Assembly (NCBI GenBank): GCA_015904055.1
Contig: JABMDE010000169.1
Span: forward strand, 1 to 10,480
DNA: 10,480 nucleotides
Source of the DNA: Nitrospira sp.
GTDB lineage: Bacteria > Nitrospirota > Nitrospiria > Nitrospirales > Nitrospiraceae
Direction of reading: 5' to 3'
Shown here: positions 144 to 10,261 of the stretch, piece by piece
Position numbering within the stretch: position 1 is the stretch's first letter
How the letters are laid out: the number at the start of each line of letters is the position of its first letter
Program-made: the position numbers and the translations under genes
The notes under the pieces: model-generated
The model's database searches: none
What the model was told of the DNA's origin: nothing
The model's input: only the letters and a program-made list of their open reading frames with translations

Positions 144-193
144 CACTCATCTGAGCGTAGATGAAGAATGGAGTAGGAACAGGATCAACGAGG

Positions 194-604
194 ATGACAA
201 CCGTGAGCAAGGGGAAGGCTGCTATCGTGCTGATTGTCGAGGATGACCGGGAGATGCTCAGTCTGCTCTGCGACGAGTTCTGGAGCGCCGAGTATCGGCT
301 TCGGCAAGCTCGGGACGGAGACGAGGCCTTTCGGATGGTAATGGAGTCCGTTCCAGATCTGATCCTGACCGATCTCCGTATGCCGGCTGGTGGCGCGGAC
401 TATATCAGCCGGCTGAGGACCGTGGCGCCGATCTGCCCCATCGTCGTCATGACGGCATTTGGAGACGCACGGTGCAAGAACGACGTGTTGAAGGCCGGCG
501 CCAATGCCTATTTTGACAAACCGGTCCGGGTTGCAGAGCTGAAGCAGTGCGTACGAGATTTGCTCGCGAACTCCTCCGAAGGCGCTGACAAGGCTGCGAG
601 CTGA
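194..604 (+). CDS. Stand-alone response regulator receiver protein
   Basis: A 136-aa CheY-like single-domain receiver. Visible receiver signatures are the acidic pocket Glu16-Asp17-Asp18, the phospho-acceptor Asp60 in LILTDLRMP, the switch Thr87 in VVMTAFGD and the invariant Lys109 in YFDKPV. There is no output domain after the receiver, so it must act through protein contacts or phosphotransfer. The ATG at 194 is preferred over the in-frame ATG at 161: an AGGA motif (181-184) sits 9 nt upstream, and a predicted transcript start near 155 would leave almost no leader for 161. The next gene, a sigma-54 activator that lacks its own receiver, begins 63 nt downstream on the same strand, so the two probably form one operon and may act together. 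No histidine kinase is in the window; it may lie upstream or elsewhere. Domain identity is certain; the partner is inferred. Confidence 0.93.
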   Translation: MTTVSKGKAAIVLIVEDDREMLSLLCDEFWSAEYRLRQARDGDEAFRMVMESVPDLILTDLRMPAGGADYISRLRTVAPICPIVVMTAFGDARCKNDVLKAGANAYFDKPVRVAELKQCVRDLLANSSEGADKAAS

Positions 605-639
605 CAAACTCTCAAGGAGTATCATCTCAGCTTGTCAGC
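584..639 (+). repeat. Inverted repeat across the receiver/activator junction
   Basis: GCTGACAAG at 584-592 is the exact reverse complement of CTTGTCAGC at 631-639. A second left arm, GCTGACAA at 600-607, lies between them and includes the receiver stop codon. Either arm could pair with the right arm in the mRNA, with the AAGGAG at 613-618 in the loop. It could influence the ratio of the two proteins, but it may be coincidence. Confidence 0.4.
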
Positions 640-667
640 ATGCCTCTTATTATCCTCAAGGAACCCG

Positions 668-2062
668 ATGGCCGGATCTTCTGAAGGCGACAAGCTGACC
701 CCTCCCTTTACCGATCCTATCCTGGCTGCCAGACTGGAAGCCATCAAACAGCTTGCCGGTGGCTTGACTGACCGTGTGGCCGTCATGGATCGCAGTTTCA
801 ATGTGATCTATGCGAACGAGTCGGCCTGGTCGTCGGCTTCCGTCAGGAACTCCGCCGGCCGCCAGGCCAAGTGTTACGAAGCCTTCGCCCATCGAACCGA
901 TCCCTGCGGAACCTGTCCGGCCGTCACCGTCTTCGACGCTCCGGAGGTTCAGTCTGTTTCCTGTCACAGCGGAGGCGACGGCACGGCTTGCGGGATGCAG
1001 CAGGCCTTTCCGCTTGCCTCAGGCCCTGGCGACATCGGCTCCATGCTGGTGTTGTTCAAGGATGAGCCATTTCAAAATCTCCCGGACCTCACGCCTGTTC
1101 CCGATGAACAGCCGCCTCCAGCGGTGCGGGAGTCCTTGGGCGAGTTGATCGGCCGGAGTCCGGTCATGCAGCAACTGTTCGACATGACCGCGCTTGTCGC
1201 GGACAGCGCGGCTACGGTCCTGATCCAGGGTGAGAGCGGAACGGGCAAAGAGGTTCTGGCCAGAACGATTCACACCTTGAGCCAGCGGAACGAGAAACCG
1301 TTCATCGTCGTGGATTGCGGCGCGTTGCCGGAGACATTGCTTGAAAGCGAATTGTTCGGCCATGTGAAGGGAGCCTTCACCGGGGCGGTCGCAGATAAAC
1401 GGGGTCTGTTCGAAGAGGCCGACGGAGGGACGATCTTCCTCGATGAGATTGCCGACACCGCACCGGTGTTTCAGGCCAAGCTGTTGCGCGTTCTCCAAGA
1501 GGGTGAGATCAAGCGGGTCGGCGGGGCCAGACCCATCAAGGTCGATGTGCGGGTCATCTCCGCGGCAAACAAAGACCTGGCTGAACTGGTGAAGGCCAAG
1601 TCGTTTCGCCAGGATCTCTACTATCGTCTGGCAGTGTTGCCGCTGTTTCTCCCGCCGCTCCGGGACCGGCGGGAGGATATCCCGTTGTTGGTCAAACACT
1701 TCGTCGCCGCGTCCTGTGCCCGGCATGGTCAAGCCCTGCGGCATGTCGCTGAAAAAACGATGCGGATATTGTGCGACGCTCCCTGGCCAGGGAATGTTCG
1801 AGAATTGCAGCACTCCATCGAGCGGGCTGTTGTTACGACGACCGGATTGAATCTCATATGCAACGACATCGATGCCAGGTACCAGAGAGAAGATCCGAAA
1901 GACCTTCGATCCGCCGCGCGTGAGGCCGTGTCGCACACCGAACGGGCGCGTATTCTTGAGGCGCTCGCGAAAACCAACGGCAATCGGGTGAAAGCGGCCA
2001 AGCTGCTCAAGATCAGCCGGGCGAACCTCTACAACAAACTGCGCGACTACTCTATTCAATAG
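668..2062 (+). CDS. Sigma-54-dependent transcriptional activator (PAS-AAA-Fis)
   Basis: A 464-aa bacterial enhancer-binding protein that would remodel sigma-54 RNA polymerase at -24/-12 promoters. An N-terminal PAS-like sensor (about 25-133) carries five cysteines (69, 80, 83, 99, 108), including a CxxC in DPCGTCP, which could bind a metal or cofactor or sense redox state. The AAA+ domain (about 160-390) has Walker A GESGTGKE (188-195), the sigma-54-contacting GAFTGA loop (235-240), Walker B GGTIFLDE (253-260) and WPGNVREL (373-380). A Fis-type helix-turn-helix closes the protein (about 428-461, [20 protein letters not shown]). GAFTGA is intact, so it should be a true sigma-54 activator. It lacks a receiver domain; a separate receiver is encoded just upstream. 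The ATG at 668 has AGGA (659-662) five bases ahead. An in-frame TTG at 632 with AAGGAG (613-618) would add 12 residues. Likely targets are the two sigma-54 elements in this window. Confidence 0.93.
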
Positions 2063-2283: not shown

Positions 2284-2298
2284 TGGCACAAAGGTTGC
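2284..2298 (+). promoter_or_regulatory. Strong sigma-54 (-24/-12) promoter of the oxidase gene
   Basis: TGGCACAAAGGTTGC matches the sigma-54 core consensus TGGCACG-N4-TTGC at every defined base except one (A for G at 2290), with exactly 10 bp between the GG and GC pairs. Transcription should start near 2310, about 235 nt before the oxidase start codon. The adjacent upstream gene encodes a GAFTGA-type activator, the protein such a promoter needs. The oxidase is therefore predicted to be off unless the activator is switched on. Confidence 0.82.
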
Positions 2299-2504
2299 GC
2301 TAGTGCTGGGCTGCTGGTGAGGGTATGGGTGATTATGGACCGGCCTCCGAATGACCCATCCCTTCTCAAGAAGGAGCCCTCACCAGCTCTATCCCTCCGC
2401 GACCTAGGCCGGAAGGTACTCGGAGGCCGGTTCTCTCCATACTGTGAACGTAGGAATCGCGAGAGCGCAGGTAAGGGCGACGAGACCCTGACATCGTTAA
2501 CCAT

Positions 2505-2530: not shown

Positions 2531-2538
2531 GGAGGAGG
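2531..2538 (+). promoter_or_regulatory. Strong ribosome binding site deciding the oxidase start
   Basis: GGAGGAGG lies six bases before the ATG at 2545, which opens directly into a Sec-type signal peptide. The reading frame stays open back to a GTG at 2317, but that start has no ribosome site, is about 7 nt from the predicted transcript start and would bury the signal peptide. The start at 2545 is therefore preferred. Confidence 0.85.
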
Positions 2539-2544
2539 CCGTGT

Positions 2545-5500
2545 ATGAGATCGTTAGTATGTGAATCACACCATAGGGGAAGGACAACCAGCCTTGGATT
2601 GGTGCTTCTGAGTCTGTTGTTCGTAGGCAGTCTGGTCATGGCGCCGATCGGGCTGGCCCAAGATCGGCACAGTCACCACGGAAGCACCGACCAGGCGTCT
2701 GTGGAGAAGGTCATTTATCGCGAAGGCGGGCCGACGCTGCACGACCGTATGATGCAGGAGGTGAAGCGGCAACAGGAGTTCGTCGGGCAGAAGGGCGGAT
2801 ACAGCGCCGGCGCCGATAGCCACATGCTCCAACAGGGTGTGTTGTTGGTGGCGGAGGATCAGGCGAAAGTCGGCGTCGGAGCTCGCTGTCCATCGAATGT
2901 GCCGGTGAAAGAGTATCACGTCTCGGCGATCAACATCGAAATCACGCTCAGCCGGTTCCTCGACTATTTCCCCGGCTATATGTACGTGCTGACCGAGAAC
3001 GTCGAGAAGGCGAGAGCCGAGGAAACGGCGAATCGGGACGCGCGGGAGAAGGACAACGATCCCGGTGCCGTATCGAACGGGCTGCAAGGCGATGTGATCC
3101 AACCGCTCGTCATCAGGGCCAATCAGGGCGATTGCCTCAAGCTGACGCTCCACAACCAGGTCACCGATGAACCGACGAACCTCGTCATTAACGGGTCCTC
3201 GCTGGTGGTTGCGGCTACGGGCAAACCGGCGACTCCTTCGAATCCGGAGACCACGGTGGCGCCGGGCGGGCAGCAGACGTTCGAATGGTTCATCCAGCCG
3301 GATACGCAGGAAGGCGCGCGATTTTTCCGCTCGCATGCTTCGCGCGAGCAGTTCAACCAGGGCTTGATCGGCATGCTTGTCGTGGAGCCGCGCGGCTCGC
3401 GTTATCTCAGCCCATTCGACGGGAAGCCGATGGCGAGCGGGTGGGAAGCCATGATCGAAGATCCGAAGGGAGCGGACTTCCGCGAGTTTGCGATCTTCTA
3501 TCATGAAGCCGGCGACGAAGCCTTCCGGCTGTTGAACAAGAAGAGCGAAATGCTGCCGCAACGCGATCCTCACACCGATTCCTATCGTCCCGGCGCGCGG
3601 CTGCTGAATTATCGAAGCGAGCCGCACGGCACACGCATCGAGCTTCAGGCCCATCTGGGGTTCTATGGCGACGAGTCCATGGCGTACGGGTCCTATACGT
3701 TTGGCGATCCGGCGACGACGATTCCCCGGTCCTACCTCGGCGATCCGGCTAAATTCCGGATGGCGGGCGGCTCGGAGATCGTCCATTCACATCATCTTCA
3801 TGGCGGGTCCATCCGTTGGGCGCGCCAGCCGGGGATCAGCCAGCTTGATTTCTCGGTGTCGAAGAACGGGCCGGTAAAGTTTCCTCCGATCAGCGACCCT
3901 TCGGATCGGTTGGACGTACAGTCCATCGGGCCGACGGAAGTCTATGATCAGGTGATCGAAGGAGGGTCAGGAGGTCTGCAGGCCTTGGCGGGTGAGTTCG
4001 TGTTTCATTGCCATATCCCGCAACATTATGTGACAGGGATGTGGGGGTTCTGGCGCGTATACAACACGCTGCAAGCGCCGGGATTCCAGACCGACGTGAT
4101 GAAGCCGCTTGTTGAATTGCCGGATCGTATCGGCAAGATCAAGCCGGGCATTCCATCCGACACACTGGTCGGCACCACGGTGGATTGGTACGGCGGCAAG
4201 AAATACGAGATCACTAAAGACAAGACCGACTGGAAAGCCGATCCGGTCAAGGTCTCCATCAAGGACTGGGTGGAGATGATGCTCACGCCGCAGGGAAAGC
4301 CCGGCAAGAAGAGCACGGAGAAAGAGCAGACCTTGGCCTACGATGCGACCGTCAACGACTGGGCGTGGGACGGGCAGAAGGCCATGAGCGAACCCGAAAC
4401 GATGTATGAGTGGGTCAACTACAAGTCGGCGACGCCGGGCAAGCGCCAGGAAATTCTTTTTGATGCCAAGACCGGCAAGATCGCCTGGCCATGGCTGCGG
4501 CCGCATCTGGGCCGGCGCGTGCCCTTCTCGCCGAGCCACAGCGGGGCGCCGTGGCTTGAGCCGATTCATCGTCGTGACGACGGCAGCAATTCCACCGAGC
4601 CGCCGAAGCCGGGCGAGCAAGGACCCTGGAGTCTCTGTCCTGAGGGTGCGCCTCGGAAGTATTTCAACATCCATGCGATTACGTTGCCGATCACGCTCAA
4701 GAAGGCGACGGCCAAGACGCCGGCCATCGTGGACCCGGACGGCATGCTCTATGTGCTGCACGAAGAAGAGCAGGAGGTGCGGAAGCATCATGCCAAGCAG
4801 ATGCCGCTTGTGATTCGTGGCAACGTGCAGGATTGCATCGATGTTGTCTACAAGAGCGAGTTGAAAGACGATCAGCGGCAAGGGTTCTCCAGCAAGACGA
4901 ACCTGCACCCGCACATGTTCCAGTTCGATACGCAAGCGTCGGACGGGCCCATCATCGGATTCTCCTATGAGATGTCATTGCGGCCCTTCACGATTTTGAA
5001 GGACGAACATCCCGGCAAGGGCATGCCCGTGCCGATGAACACGACGATCGAGGCCGATGCGCCGAAAGGCGCAACCGGCATCACTGTGAAGGATGCCTCG
5101 CGGTTTCACGTCAAAACCGAGCTTGGCGTGGGCATGGACGAAGTGGGCCGGTTCGAGTCGGCTCGAATCAGCAAGATCGACGGCAATAGAATTTCCTTTG
5201 AGCGCCCGCTCATGCACGGTCACAAGAAGGGTGAGATCGTGTCGGTGGAATGGATCAGGGAACGGTGGTATGTGGACGCTGATTTCGGCACCACCTTCTG
5301 GCACGACCATGTGTTTGGGTTGGACGGCTGGGGCCACGGCCTCTTCTCCACCTTCATTGCCGAACCGCCGCGGTCTACCTACCATGATCCGGTGACCGGC
5401 AACGAACTTCGCAGCGGGCCGGTGGCCGACATTCACACCACCGAAGCAGTCTCTGCCCATATCAATGGGTCCTTCCGTGAGATCGTGACGCAGGTCATGG

Positions 5501-7296
5501 ATTCCAATCCCAGAACAGCCGAGTTGATCACGACCGACAATCCACAGGCGAGAGTCGGGGCGATCTCCGTAGACGGCACCCCGTCCGCGGTCTATCCGGC
5601 CAAGCTCAATCTCTCGCCGATGAAATTCCTGAACGGCGGTGAAGCCACGACAGGGAGCGGGTACAACATGCGTGTGGAGCCCTTGTCGGTGCGATTGGCG
5701 AACAATCCGGATCCGTCGCAGTTGTTCAGCAGCCGGATTCACGGTGATCCCGAGACGCCGATGTTGCGGGCCTACCTGGGCGATCCGGTGGTGGTTCGGC
5801 TGCTCGAAGGGTCGGCCAATGAAGTCCATTCCTGGCACATCAGCGGCCATTGGTTCCCGATGGAGCGCTACAGCAAGCACTCCATCCCGCGCAGCACGTT
5901 GCACGTGGTGATCGGAGAACGGTACGACGCGGCCATTCCAGCGGCAGGAGGGCCGCAACAGATGGCGGGCGACTATCTGTACTACAGCGGCCGGGCGTCG
6001 CACTTCGCGGAAGGCAGTTGGGGTCTGTTCAGGGTCCTGGACAAGGCTGAGGCGTCCTTGAAGCCGCTGCCGGGCCGGAGCGCAATTCCAGAGTCGGCCA
6101 AGTCTGTCTGTCCGGCCGATGCACCGGTGAAAAGTTTCAACGTGTCTGCTATCGACAAGACGATCCGCTACAACAAGGGAACGCCTGGTGTCATGGAAGT
6201 GGATCTGGAGCGAAAGATGGTCTTGGGCAATGAGAGCGGCAAGATGTACGTGCTCGATGGCGAGAAAACGAAAGTAGCCTCGGGCAGTCTCGAACCGAGC
6301 CCGCTGACCTTGCACGTCAATGTAGGCGATTGCATCAAGGTCAATCTCAAGAACGAGATGGCCAAGGATCGGGCCGGATTCCATGTCGATCATCTGGCAT
6401 TCGATCCGAAAGAGTCGATGGGGATCAACGCCGGTAACAATCCCGGCGACCAGACGGTTGCGCCGGGACAACGCCGGACCTACACGTTCTACGCTCATCC
6501 GGAATTCGGGGAGAATGCCGCTCTGATTCAGGATTGGGGTAACGTGATCGAGAATCCTCGAAACGGGCTGTTCGGGGCGATCATCATCGGCCCGAGGGGA
6601 TCGCAATATCGCGATCCGGTGGCCGGCGAAGATTTGGCCCAGAGAAGTTCCTGGCGGGCGGACGTGATGGTGGACCGGAGCCTGCCGGGGAATGAACAGC
6701 GGCAGAACTACCGGTCCTTCGCGCTTCTGTTCCAGGATGAAGACAACATCATCGGCACCAGCTTCATGCCGTATATTCAAAAAGTGGCCGGCGTGACGGC
6801 GGTGAACTATCGGTCTGAGCCGACCGACTATCGGACTGAGAAAGGTTGCGCGTACAGTGAAGTCTTCGCCTGCGTCAAGGCGGGGGACCAGCCGGTCACG
6901 CCGACCATCGCGGCGCACCTCGGCGATCCGGTCGTCATTCACGTACTGGGCGCCTTCAGCGAGCAGGTCCAACTGTTCAGCGTGTCGGGCCATGAATGGA
7001 AACATGAGCCGTACCTGGCCGGAGCGGATCTCGTGAGCACCATGGAATTCGGCGGGTCCGAGGTCATCAACGCCTGGCTGCACGGCGGAGCCGGAGGGCC
7101 CAACGGTATTCCCGGCGACTATCTTTGGCTCAACCAGCGTCCAGGGTATCTTGATGCCGGGCACTGGGGGATGTTGAAGGTCTTGGATCGTGACAGCCGC
7201 GGGATTCTCCCATTAAGTGGTCGGGTCCCTAGTACTCAACAAGCCGGAGATGGTCCATCCGCGAAATCCATCCCGGTGTCCAGGCAGGCCGAGTAG
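2545..7296 (+). CDS. Exported six-cupredoxin multicopper oxidase, MnxG/ceruloplasmin-like layout
   Basis: A 1583-aa multicopper oxidase, expected to couple one-electron oxidation of a substrate (metal ion or organic) to reduction of O2 to water outside the cytoplasm. A Sec signal peptide (core about 16-33, cleavage near Ala38) precedes a His-rich stretch (42-45). Three tandem two-cupredoxin units follow: A about 115-505, B about 698-1165, C about 1189-1548. Each starts with a CPxxxP motif (Cys115, 698, 1189), has a second Cys (197, 764, 1263), NYRSEP or NMRVEP (355, 1041, 1421) and LGDP (398, 1078, 1459). One full set of copper ligands is seen: His414/417/419 (HSHHLHG) and His488-Cys489-His490, His494, Met499 (HCHIPQHYVTGM) in unit A; His788/790 (HPH) and His920/922 (WHDH) in unit B. 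The order is therefore L3-L4-L1-L2, the reverse of ordinary laccases. Unit B's second domain keeps HSWHISGH (1095-1102) but lacks the L4 Cys; unit C is degenerate. A roughly 70-residue insert (833-904) separates L1 from L2. Mn(II), Cu(I) or Fe(II) as substrate is inference only. Confidence 0.9.
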   Translation: MRSLVCESHHRGRTTSLGLVLLSLLFVGSLVMAPIGLAQDRHSHHGSTDQASVEKVIYREGGPTLHDRMMQEVKRQQEFVGQKGGYSAGADSHMLQQGVLLVAEDQAKVGVGARCPSNVPVKEYHVSAINIEITLSRFLDYFPGYMYVLTENVEKARAEETANRDAREKDNDPGAVSNGLQGDVIQPLVIRANQGDCLKLTLHNQVTDEPTNLVINGSSLVVAATGKPATPSNPETTVAPGGQQTFEWFIQPDTQEGARFFRSHASREQFNQGLIGMLVVEPRGSRYLSPFDGKPMASGWEAMIEDPKGADFREFAIFYHEAGDEAFRLLNKKSEMLPQRDPHTDSYRPGARLLNYRSEPHGTRIELQAHLGFYGDESMAYGSYTFGDPATTIPRSYLGDPAKFRMAGGSEIVHSHHLHGGSIRWARQPGISQLDFSVSKNGPVKFPPISDPSDRLDVQSIGPTEVYDQVIEGGSGGLQALAGEFVFHCHIPQHYVTGMWGFWRVYNTLQAPGFQTDVMKPLVELPDRIGKIKPGIPSDTLVGTTVDWYGGKKYEITKDKTDWKADPVKVSIKDWVEMMLTPQGKPGKKSTEKEQTLAYDATVNDWAWDGQKAMSEPETMYEWVNYKSATPGKRQEILFDAKTGKIAWPWLRPHLGRRVPFSPSHSGAPWLEPIHRRDDGSNSTEPPKPGEQGPWSLCPEGAPRKYFNIHAITLPITLKKATAKTPAIVDPDGMLYVLHEEEQEVRKHHAKQMPLVIRGNVQDCIDVVYKSELKDDQRQGFSSKTNLHPHMFQFDTQASDGPIIGFSYEMSLRPFTILKDEHPGKGMPVPMNTTIEADAPKGATGITVKDASRFHVKTELGVGMDEVGRFESARISKIDGNRISFERPLMHGHKKGEIVSVEWIRERWYVDADFGTTFWHDHVFGLDGWGHGLFSTFIAEPPRSTYHDPVTGNELRSGPVADIHTTEAVSAHINGSFREIVTQVMDSNPRTAELITTDNPQARVGAISVDGTPSAVYPAKLNLSPMKFLNGGEATTGSGYNMRVEPLSVRLANNPDPSQLFSSRIHGDPETPMLRAYLGDPVVVRLLEGSANEVHSWHISGHWFPMERYSKHSIPRSTLHVVIGERYDAAIPAAGGPQQMAGDYLYYSGRASHFAEGSWGLFRVLDKAEASLKPLPGRSAIPESAKSVCPADAPVKSFNVSAIDKTIRYNKGTPGVMEVDLERKMVLGNESGKMYVLDGEKTKVASGSLEPSPLTLHVNVGDCIKVNLKNEMAKDRAGFHVDHLAFDPKESMGINAGNNPGDQTVAPGQRRTYTFYAHPEFGENAALIQDWGNVIENPRNGLFGAIIIGPRGSQYRDPVAGEDLAQRSSWRADVMVDRSLPGNEQRQNYRSFALLFQDEDNIIGTSFMPYIQKVAGVTAVNYRSEPTDYRTEKGCAYSEVFACVKAGDQPVTPTIAAHLGDPVVIHVLGAFSEQVQLFSVSGHEWKHEPYLAGADLVSTMEFGGSEVINAWLHGGAGGPNGIPGDYLWLNQRPGYLDAGHWGMLKVLDRDSRGILPLSGRVPSTQQAGDGPSAKSIPVSRQAE

Positions 7297-8652: not shown

Positions 8653-10053
8653 TTATGGGCCGCACGACGGCTTTTCATCCAACCCGACATGTGCACGAAG
8701 GCGGTTGTAGTCGAACGCAGTCCTGCCGATGCGAGAGAAGCCTGGGTCGTGCTGTTCCATTTCATCGATCAAGGCACCGACCTTGCCACGCATGGCAGCA
8801 GACGTCGCTGCATGACGCGGCGTTTGTTTGTCGAGTGCCAGATGCGGCTGATCCGACCATTCGAGATAGGCCTTTTCTAGAAACCCACCGAGCAGCGCAC
8901 GGTCTTGCTCTTCCGTCACAAGCAATGTCAGCGGTTCGGCGGACATGAGTTCGGCAACCGACAATTGGCGTACAGGAGGGGTCAGCGTCTCATCTCGGAA
9001 ATGCAGCGAAAATCCAAACGAGGCTGCCAGGCGATGTTTCATCTGGTTAAGCCGTTCCGGACTGTCGCATTCTACGATGAGCTGGGACGACGTCAGTGTC
9101 ACTTTTGCGACAATAGGGCCGGTCTCGCTACTTCCGTCCCGTTGCATCCAGGTGCGAGCCGGTGGAACATCTACGTCTGGCCCTGGCCTCCCGGTCGGAG
9201 GCGCCGTCTTCTCCGGCACAAGCTCGCTCATCTCAGACAACCCATCGGCAAAGAACCGATACTCATGGTGGTCGTACAAAGCCACCGCATAGAGATAGGG
9301 CTGGCCATCGGGACGGCGATAGCAAATATGGGCGACGGCGTCTACCAGCGCGTCCTTGCGGAGCTGTGCGAACGCCCAGAGCAGCATATACCCGACACGC
9401 TTGGTAAACTCCTTCCACTCTCCTAACGCGAAGGACCCGGAACTCATCTCCATCTCGCGTTGCCATTCTGCCGTCATCTCGAGTAGCGCATGGGCATCGG
9501 TCTGCGACAAGACGATTCCGCAACCAGCCCACACCGATTTGCCTGATGCGCCACTATCCGGGGAGGGAACGACGCGGGTCAACAACACCTGACCCGCTGT
9601 CACATTCTTGAGGGAGTCATCGCACGGCATGACACACATCGTTCGATCTCCAAGTGACCGCAGCACGAGCTCGTCCCCGGACTTTGGAGAGGCGGTCAGT
9701 TCCAGCAGATCGAAGTAGGAATGCTTCAACGGATCGAGCCATTGCCGTTCGTCATTGGGAATGTGTTCGGTAATCACATCGCGCAACTGTTCGATGAGCG
9801 TTAGTTGCCCGTCTTCTGGATAGAAATCGCAAAAGAGCACGAGATTTGCGAGCTCTACTTCCTGCTCCAGCGGTGGGGCGAGCCGTCCTGCGCCCCCTTC
9901 CAGATACGGCTTGAGCACGAGCGTGAAGGCCACCTCGCGTTGCACTCGAAATTCTGGCTTACGAGAGAGGTGTTCCAGACGTGCCAGAATCGCATCCAGA
10001 AACAGAGGTCTCTGAGTCCAGAATCCTATTGCTTGTTCACTCGCGAGCTTCAT
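8653..10053 (-). CDS. Uncharacterised 466-aa protein
   Basis: I do not recognise this as a named protein. It is soluble-looking: no signal peptide and no membrane segment. The N-terminal half is helical and acidic; the middle has CYRRPDGQPYLYAVALYDHHEY-type strands; a Pro-rich linker (about 285-305) leads to a C-terminal region ending in a module with TPRHAA (411-416), RGKVGALIDEME (422-433) and FDYNRLRAHVGL. That module resembles the TPR-x-A...R-x-V...LL...E...LR..LGL pattern I associate with C-terminal domains of several uncharacterised bacterial proteins. The start at 10053 has a GGAGGA site a few bases ahead and overlaps the end of the DUF2934 frame by 17 nt, suggesting translational coupling. 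The frame stays open to an ATG at 10173, but that extension runs through the DUF2934 coding sequence out of frame and is rejected. The surrounding Usp genes hint at a stress-related role, not shown. Confidence 0.82.
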   Translation of the reverse strand: MKLASEQAIGFWTQRPLFLDAILARLEHLSRKPEFRVQREVAFTLVLKPYLEGGAGRLAPPLEQEVELANLVLFCDFYPEDGQLTLIEQLRDVITEHIPNDERQWLDPLKHSYFDLLELTASPKSGDELVLRSLGDRTMCVMPCDDSLKNVTAGQVLLTRVVPSPDSGASGKSVWAGCGIVLSQTDAHALLEMTAEWQREMEMSSGSFALGEWKEFTKRVGYMLLWAFAQLRKDALVDAVAHICYRRPDGQPYLYAVALYDHHEYRFFADGLSEMSELVPEKTAPPTGRPGPDVDVPPARTWMQRDGSSETGPIVAKVTLTSSQLIVECDSPERLNQMKHRLAASFGFSLHFRDETLTPPVRQLSVAELMSAEPLTLLVTEEQDRALLGGFLEKAYLEWSDQPHLALDKQTPRHAATSAAMRGKVGALIDEMEQHDPGFSRIGRTAFDYNRLRAHVGLDEKPSCGP

Positions 10054-10261
10054 GGATTTCCTCCATGACGATTTCTTCTGCGTCGAGCCAGTTTTGAAGC
10101 GTATCCCCGTCTTGACGGCCGCGCTCTTCCCAGAGCTCCTACGCTTTCTGCGAGATTCGTTCCCACATGCCATCCGGCAATTCGATAGGCTTCTCCGCCA
10201 AGCTGGTTGCAGAGGAAGATCGGCTTTTCCCTTTACTGCTTGTTGTTGGACTCCTTCGCAT
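10037..10261 (-). pseudogene. DUF2934 protein interrupted by an amber codon
   Basis: Read from the ATG at 10261 (GAGGAG ribosome site 6 bases ahead, 14 nt after the upstream Usp stop), the frame encodes a Ser/Lys-rich head and then WERISQKA, a TAG codon at 10139-10141, and ELWEERGRQDGDTLQNWLDAEE, ending at a TGA at 10037-10039. Joined across the TAG this is 74 codons and matches the DUF2934 pattern (AYELWEERGR-DG-WL-AE), a small family often found near stress genes. The TAG sits exactly where the family has Tyr, so a single-base change TAT or TAC to TAG explains it. It is either a true nonsense mutation, a sequence error, or (less likely) suppressed. As given, only a 40-aa fragment would be made. 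The 3' end overlaps the next gene by 17 nt. Confidence 0.8.

Follow-up and report, generated by a model that had tools for sequence, protein, structure and literature searches.

Organization of the locus

We analyzed a 10,480-nucleotide (nt) stretch of Nitrospira DNA (contig JABMDE010000169.1, hereafter the window), in which a large multicopper oxidase gene is preceded by a putative sigma-54 promoter and a predicted structured RNA. The gene (2545..7296, plus strand, as are all features below unless stated otherwise) encodes an MnxG-type multicopper oxidase of 1583 amino acids (aa), probably of six domains, which belongs to the A type of the Nitrospira paralogues described below. Upstream, a –24/–12-type sigma-54 promoter, TGGCACAAAGGTTGC (2284..2298), agrees with the consensus at 10/10 positions. 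The predicted leader RNA (2313..2387) begins 14 nt past the –12 GC and folds into a three-way junction, in which P1 is formed by 2313-2323 with 2377-2387 and the apical loop region, GGACCGGCCTCC (2337..2348), includes the anti-Shine–Dalgarno sequence CCTCC. The Shine–Dalgarno (SD) region, GGAGGCCG (2534..2541), stands 3 nt ahead of the ATG and is the exact complement of the loop sequence CGGCCTCC. The leader contains two more conserved copies (2406..2430) that could likewise pair with the loop as its complement, AGGCCGG at 2406-2412 and GGAGGCCGG at 2422-2430.

The oxidase is a long-form member of the MnxG family

Translation of 2545-7296 is open throughout, giving 1583 residues with no stop. 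Judged by eye, residues 1-39 resemble a Sec signal peptide, and the oxidase is probably secreted. The copper-ligand motifs occupy the positions given in the original prediction, which had described a ligand set split between two domains: L3, HSHHLHG (residues 414-420; 3784..3804), and L4, HCHIPQHYVTGM (residues 488-499; 4006..4041), are located in domain 2 (D2), while L1, HPH (residues 788-790; 4906..4914), and L2, WHDH (residues 919-922, with HDH at 920-922; 5299..5310), are located in domain 3 (D3). The four motif pattern types occurred together in 0/2000 shuffles of the protein, and in alignment HPH pairs with HIH, and HDH with HDH, of MnxG from the Protein Data Bank (PDB) entry 9bxa. L3 provides the type-1 ligand H414 and the trinuclear ligands H417 and H419, and L4 provides H488, C489, H490, H494 and M499; together with H788, H790, H920 and H922, these 12 ligands are invariant in 121/121 aligned sequences, the query counted. 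They are also kept in 112/112 rows of a wider alignment, A3, in which the query fragment is joined by 55 rows found with the query, 27 rows of a Streptomyces relative and its hits, one haloarchaeal row, and 28 rows of Priestia MnxG and its hits, so that Bacillota MnxG is included. This is the only complete ligand set in the protein. Domains D1, D4, D5 and D6 hold remnants only, a second cysteine-containing L4 was not found in any of these four, and its absence from D4 and D6 leaves a single type-1 site, in D2.

The fold agrees with this assignment. A predicted model of D1–D3, with a predicted local distance difference test (pLDDT) score of 91, superposes on 9bxa over 588 residues at 2.6 Å, and MnxG alone among solved structures gave a strong match (E-value 3.6e-103), as the suggested kinship with MnxG had anticipated. 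Overall, the predicted models span domains 1-4, with domain 2 well covered in one model only; domains 5-6 are seen by sequence alignment to MnxG only, and the repeats there are partly out of register. The six-domain plan is probably right, and a trinuclear site is expected between D2 and D3, as had been proposed. The protein is MnxG-type in family, ligand order and D1–D3 fold.

Two features that had been singled out as unusual are, on the other hand, ordinary for this family. In PMC3600357, all bacterial six-domain oxidases analyzed place the trinuclear histidines in D2 and D3 and the mononuclear site in D2 only, and the members listed range from 1217 to 2681 aa; hence neither the motif order nor the size stands out here, and both are family traits that were already known.

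The Nitrospira oxidase carries an 86-residue module between L1 and L2 in D3 (residues 816-901; 4990..5247), which is without counterpart in Bacillota MnxG; the neighboring HMMER stretches join at MnxG 556/557 of 9bxa. The L1–L2 gap spans 43 residues in 28/28 Bacillota MnxG rows and 42 in the single haloarchaeal one, against 128-153 across the 55 query-type rows and 112-132 among the 27 rows of Streptomyces type. The module is predicted with ten-residue pLDDT means of 87-98. Its residues E871 and H893 are invariant in 121/121 sequences and, in A3, in 55/55 query-type and 27/27 Streptomyces-type rows, and this pair could offer a second handle on substrate choice. The suggestion that the protein might form a subfamily of its own stands in part: the longer gap shared by the Nitrospirota- and Streptomyces-type rows speaks for it.

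A conserved putative leader RNA behind a probable sigma-54 promoter

Approximately 75 nt following the promoter are near-identical in 19 A-type sequences including the window, and the flanks mostly diverge. Folding predicts a three-way junction, with a z-score of –3.5 for 2311-2440. In A6, a model-free alignment of 31 sequences, 97.6% of cells pair, and 6/30 pairs have changed on both sides, a value that 0/500 shuffles reached. With a covariance model, diverged copies could then be located ahead of nine B-type and three A-type genes. In A8, an alignment of 30 sequences that includes diverged copies and was fitted to the model built from A6, compensation is seen in 25/30 pairs, pairing in P1 is complete (100%) with compensation at 9/11 of its pairs, and 0/500 shuffles reach any of the five values. 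Conservation thus makes the predicted structure almost certain, and a conserved, covarying structure within a 5′ leader is what is expected of a riboswitch. Searches of Rfam 15 returned no credible match, either for 2000-2700 of the window (only NEAT1_2, at 17.2 of 60 bits, E-value 0.4) or for five distant loci, and a description of this RNA class was not found in literature searches.

The promoter is conserved along with the RNA. Sigma-54 scores of at least 9/10 occur upstream of 23/31 A-type and 6/36 B-type genes, compared with 47/3000 random segments; scores of at least 8 accompany 87/107 loop-core sites, compared with 47/4000 control segments. Of those 87 promoters, 84 lie 36-40 nt ahead of the RNA loop, and this near-fixed spacing implies that the transcript should begin at the foot of P1. 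We regard the sigma-54 assignment, supported by conservation, as very likely.

The RNA travels with the oxidase. A refined model gives 89 hits in 73/79 genomes of the genus Nitrospira, and for 78/89 of these a listed oxidase start follows on the same strand within 700 nt, at a median distance of 159 nt. Among the loop-core sites, 102 of 107 distinct ones precede an oxidase N-terminus; since many of these loci were fetched via the oxidase, a sample of the phylum Nitrospirota is the cleaner test. There the RNA is present in 80/295 genomes, at 97 places, with 40 of these 80 genomes outside the genus set. Twenty of these places were examined, all in genomes not in the genus set (19 genomes), and 20/20 have a six-domain oxidase downstream, 51-71% identical. 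The model has no match in the Streptomyces, Priestia and Halomarina plasmid loci that carry relatives of the oxidase. One further RNA copy, L049:9444-9518, has a 10/10 sigma-54 promoter and precedes a different, exported-looking frame, approximately 2 kb from the end of that sequence.

The apical loop complements the Shine–Dalgarno region

The apical loop, GGAYYGRCCTCC, is near-invariant. An exact loop complement of at least 7 nt is present at the SD of 34/37 A-type, 11/23 third-type and 0/12 B-type genes, versus 9/363 other genes, in a count for which start codons were assigned automatically and some wrongly. When starts are taken after GGAGG and G-U pairs are allowed, at least 7 pairs form in 37/37 A-type, 18/23 third-type and 4/12 B-type genes. 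In three loci (L012, L016 and L064), the loop UUGGCCUCC and the SD GGAGGCUAA form 9 pairs, whereas the usual loop would form 7 with this SD; the change is thus compensated, in what is probably one lineage. The pairs that close the loop (GGA/TCC) and the pairing with the SD are mutually exclusive, as a switch requires. Since the apical loop is able to pair with the SD, the RNA most likely governs how the oxidase is translated, and we consider the leader a candidate translational switch.

Paralogues and neighboring genes

In Nitrospira, a genus of important nitrifiers, 78/79 genomes encode a relative of this MnxG-type protein; 69/79 have at least two matches, fragments counted. The nearest relatives are from Nitrospira genomes, with 96% identity in L001. 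By identity to the query, three types can be told apart: A (>80%), B (~70%) and a third (~54%). At least 10/70 loci hold two copies, 2.2-4.1 kb apart, and nine of these combine A and B (L006, L009, L010, L016, L046, L047, L052, L054 and L064). The types differ in the remnants of domain 1 (P0001 209-218 and 258-269), where the A type has lost both the L1- and L2-like ones (VIN; FRSH or LRSH), the B type retains HSH only, and an approximately 60%-identical group retains HIH and HSH.

Within the window, the oxidase is preceded by a single-domain response regulator (161..604; PF00072, E-value 6.1e-22) and a sigma-54-dependent activator with AAA+ and Fis-type helix–turn–helix domains (632..2062; PF00158, E-value 1.7e-70), a candidate regulator of the promoter; a response regulator lies within 3 kb upstream in 6/23 A-type loci. 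A universal stress protein gene comes after the oxidase, and a 506-aa frame on the minus strand (8653-10173) has no Pfam or NCBIfam match at an E-value of 1. At other loci, a conserved protein that looks exported and keeps H, C, H and M unchanged across 50 sequences (CGMHPYM) is found downstream of the oxidases, for example at L005:13462-14253, L046:6587-7360 and L047:13492-14265. Where 3 kb of downstream DNA is available, it follows 22/25 A-type and 12/24 B-type genes; its gene is not in this window. Pfam matches its C-terminal part only, not a copper domain. We take this protein to resemble blue-copper carriers, and view it as a candidate electron partner of the oxidase.

Proposed mechanism and alternatives

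Taken together, we interpret the locus as a long-form MnxG-type oxidase produced from a sigma-54 promoter under the control of a leader RNA, a reading to which we assign a probability of roughly 0.6. Transcription would most likely start at the sigma-54 promoter, with the structured RNA as the 5′ end of the message and its start at P1 deduced from the promoter spacing. By pairing with the SD, the apical loop would most likely set oxidase translation in response to some signal; we hold such loop–SD control to be more likely than not. In the enzyme, the type-1 copper in D2 (H414, C489, H494, M499) would take single electrons from a reduced substrate, and the electrons would cross the H-C-H bridge, a path expected from the family, to a trinuclear cluster held by H417/H419/H488/H490 of D2 and H788/H790/H920/H922 of D3, where O2 would be reduced to water. 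Beyond this, we envision, tentatively, a sigma-54-transcribed RNA class dedicated to Nitrospirota MnxG-type genes. Such an RNA would respond to a signal, for which Mn2+, Cu+ and a redox-linked metabolite are conceivable, and would turn translation on or off according to whether its anti-SD loop is exposed or buried. That the leader itself directly binds a ligand such as a metal ion is somewhat more doubtful still.

Several observations weigh against this interpretation. In A6, further pair types are no more frequent than in shuffles (443/500 as high); the fitting of A8 to the A6-derived model makes its counts lean toward the structure; and the loci are related, so that counts are not independent. 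In B-type genes the loop pairing is mostly GGAGG alone (8/12 at 5 pairs). When SDs were swapped among 23 distinct loop/SD combinations, 651/10000 swaps gave an equal or higher mean, so that a leader's own loop–SD pairing is only weakly better than a swapped one in what is a weak test. The activator family is found within 3 kb upstream in only 9/23 A-type loci. Upstream there is no frame resembling MnxE or MnxF, and no separate plus-strand open reading frame of at least 80 aa lies in 2063-2544. The oxidase matches the NCBIfam MnxG model NF041487 (1894 positions) in seven stretches with an E-value of 1.6e-35, but its score of 121.5 does not reach the equivalog cut-off of 3100 bits. An assay of any enzyme from this oxidase clade was not found in the literature searched.

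Anti-SD small RNAs carry CCUCC, as does this loop, and the leader might accordingly be a 5′-terminal stability structure or the source of such a trans-acting RNA, instead of a cis switch. The mostly generic GGAGG match of the B-type SDs and the weak swap test fit that alternative, yet the extended match of A- and third-type genes to their own SDs, rare among other genes, the conservation of two further complements of the loop within the leader, and the joint change of loop and SD in the one lineage all point back to cis control, and we find the alternative unlikely. As for the substrate, Mn(II) is our leading inference at slightly less than even odds, with Fe(II), Cu(I) and phenols as alternatives. 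PMC12070406 reports that MnxG is encoded by Nitrospira genomes obtained from the inoculum of a sand filter, that ammonium and manganese removal in drinking-water filters appear linked, and that manganese oxidation by Nitrospira is an open question; PMC9040806 describes two novel multicopper oxidases per member of Ca. Manganitrophaceae. The enzyme could instead be mainly a copper or iron oxidase guarding the periplasm, akin to CueO or a ferroxidase. PMC13374858 treats CueO/PcoA-type oxidases in the context of how nitrifiers handle copper, and in PMC3600357 green-algal six-domain ferroxidases have the same D2/D3 site. This role nevertheless seems rather unlikely to us, as MnxG is the sole strong solved-structure match and PMC12070406 ties MnxG-bearing Nitrospira to manganese removal in sand filters, albeit by correlation only. 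A respiratory variant, in which electrons from Mn(II) or another metal pass to a periplasmic carrier and support lithotrophy, not reaching O2 alone, draws on the frequent CGMHPYM gene downstream of A- and B-type oxidases. It appears improbable, because an enzyme with a complete trinuclear site can pass its electrons to O2, the gene for the carrier is absent from this window, and the Pfam hit to the CGMHPYM protein does not cover a copper domain.

The new part is that the oxidase gene is tied to a sigma-54 promoter and to an RNA element with no counterpart in Rfam. The signal of this RNA would point to the physiological role of the enzyme, and a short RNA together with a reporter would bring that question within reach of experiment.

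Comparison with known systems

Three-domain laccases, of approximately 500 residues, carry L1/L2 ahead of L3/L4; membership in that group is excluded by the 1583-aa length and the L3/L4-first order. Ceruloplasmin, considered here together with coagulation factors V and VIII, is arranged differently: PMC3600357 places its trinuclear site between D1 and D6 and its type-1 sites in D2, D4 and D6. The oxidase does not have this D1–D6 site, as its D1 and D6 hold remnants only. In its bolder form, the original prediction would make this a ceruloplasmin-like oxidase of independent origin whose motif order had been swapped anew. That reading is contradicted by the 9bxa match, the motif alignment, the superposition and PMC3600357, and we give it next to no weight.

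The closest characterized structure, MnxG of Bacillus sp. PL-12 (9bxa, the Mnx H340A complex), has the same arrangement of L3/L4 in D2 and L1/L2 in D3, but is shorter (1227 aa versus 1583 aa) and is without the L1–L2 module. The linker between D2 and D3 also differs, with 77-82 residues in Bacillota MnxG rows versus 180-221 in rows of the Nitrospira-oxidase group. In Bacillus MnxEFG, the small genes mnxE and mnxF are directly upstream, whereas here the upstream gene is the sigma-54 activator; small genes such as those of 96 and 108 codons at a MnxG locus of Priestia are likewise absent at the Nitrospira locus. With the structured leaders and riboswitches of Rfam, the RNA has in common a conserved, covarying 5′-leader structure and a possible SD-sequestering element. 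The Nitrospirota proteins annotated as 'multicopper oxidase domain-containing protein', in Nitrospira and Ca. Manganitrophaceae, belong to the same family as the oxidase described here, at up to 96% identity.
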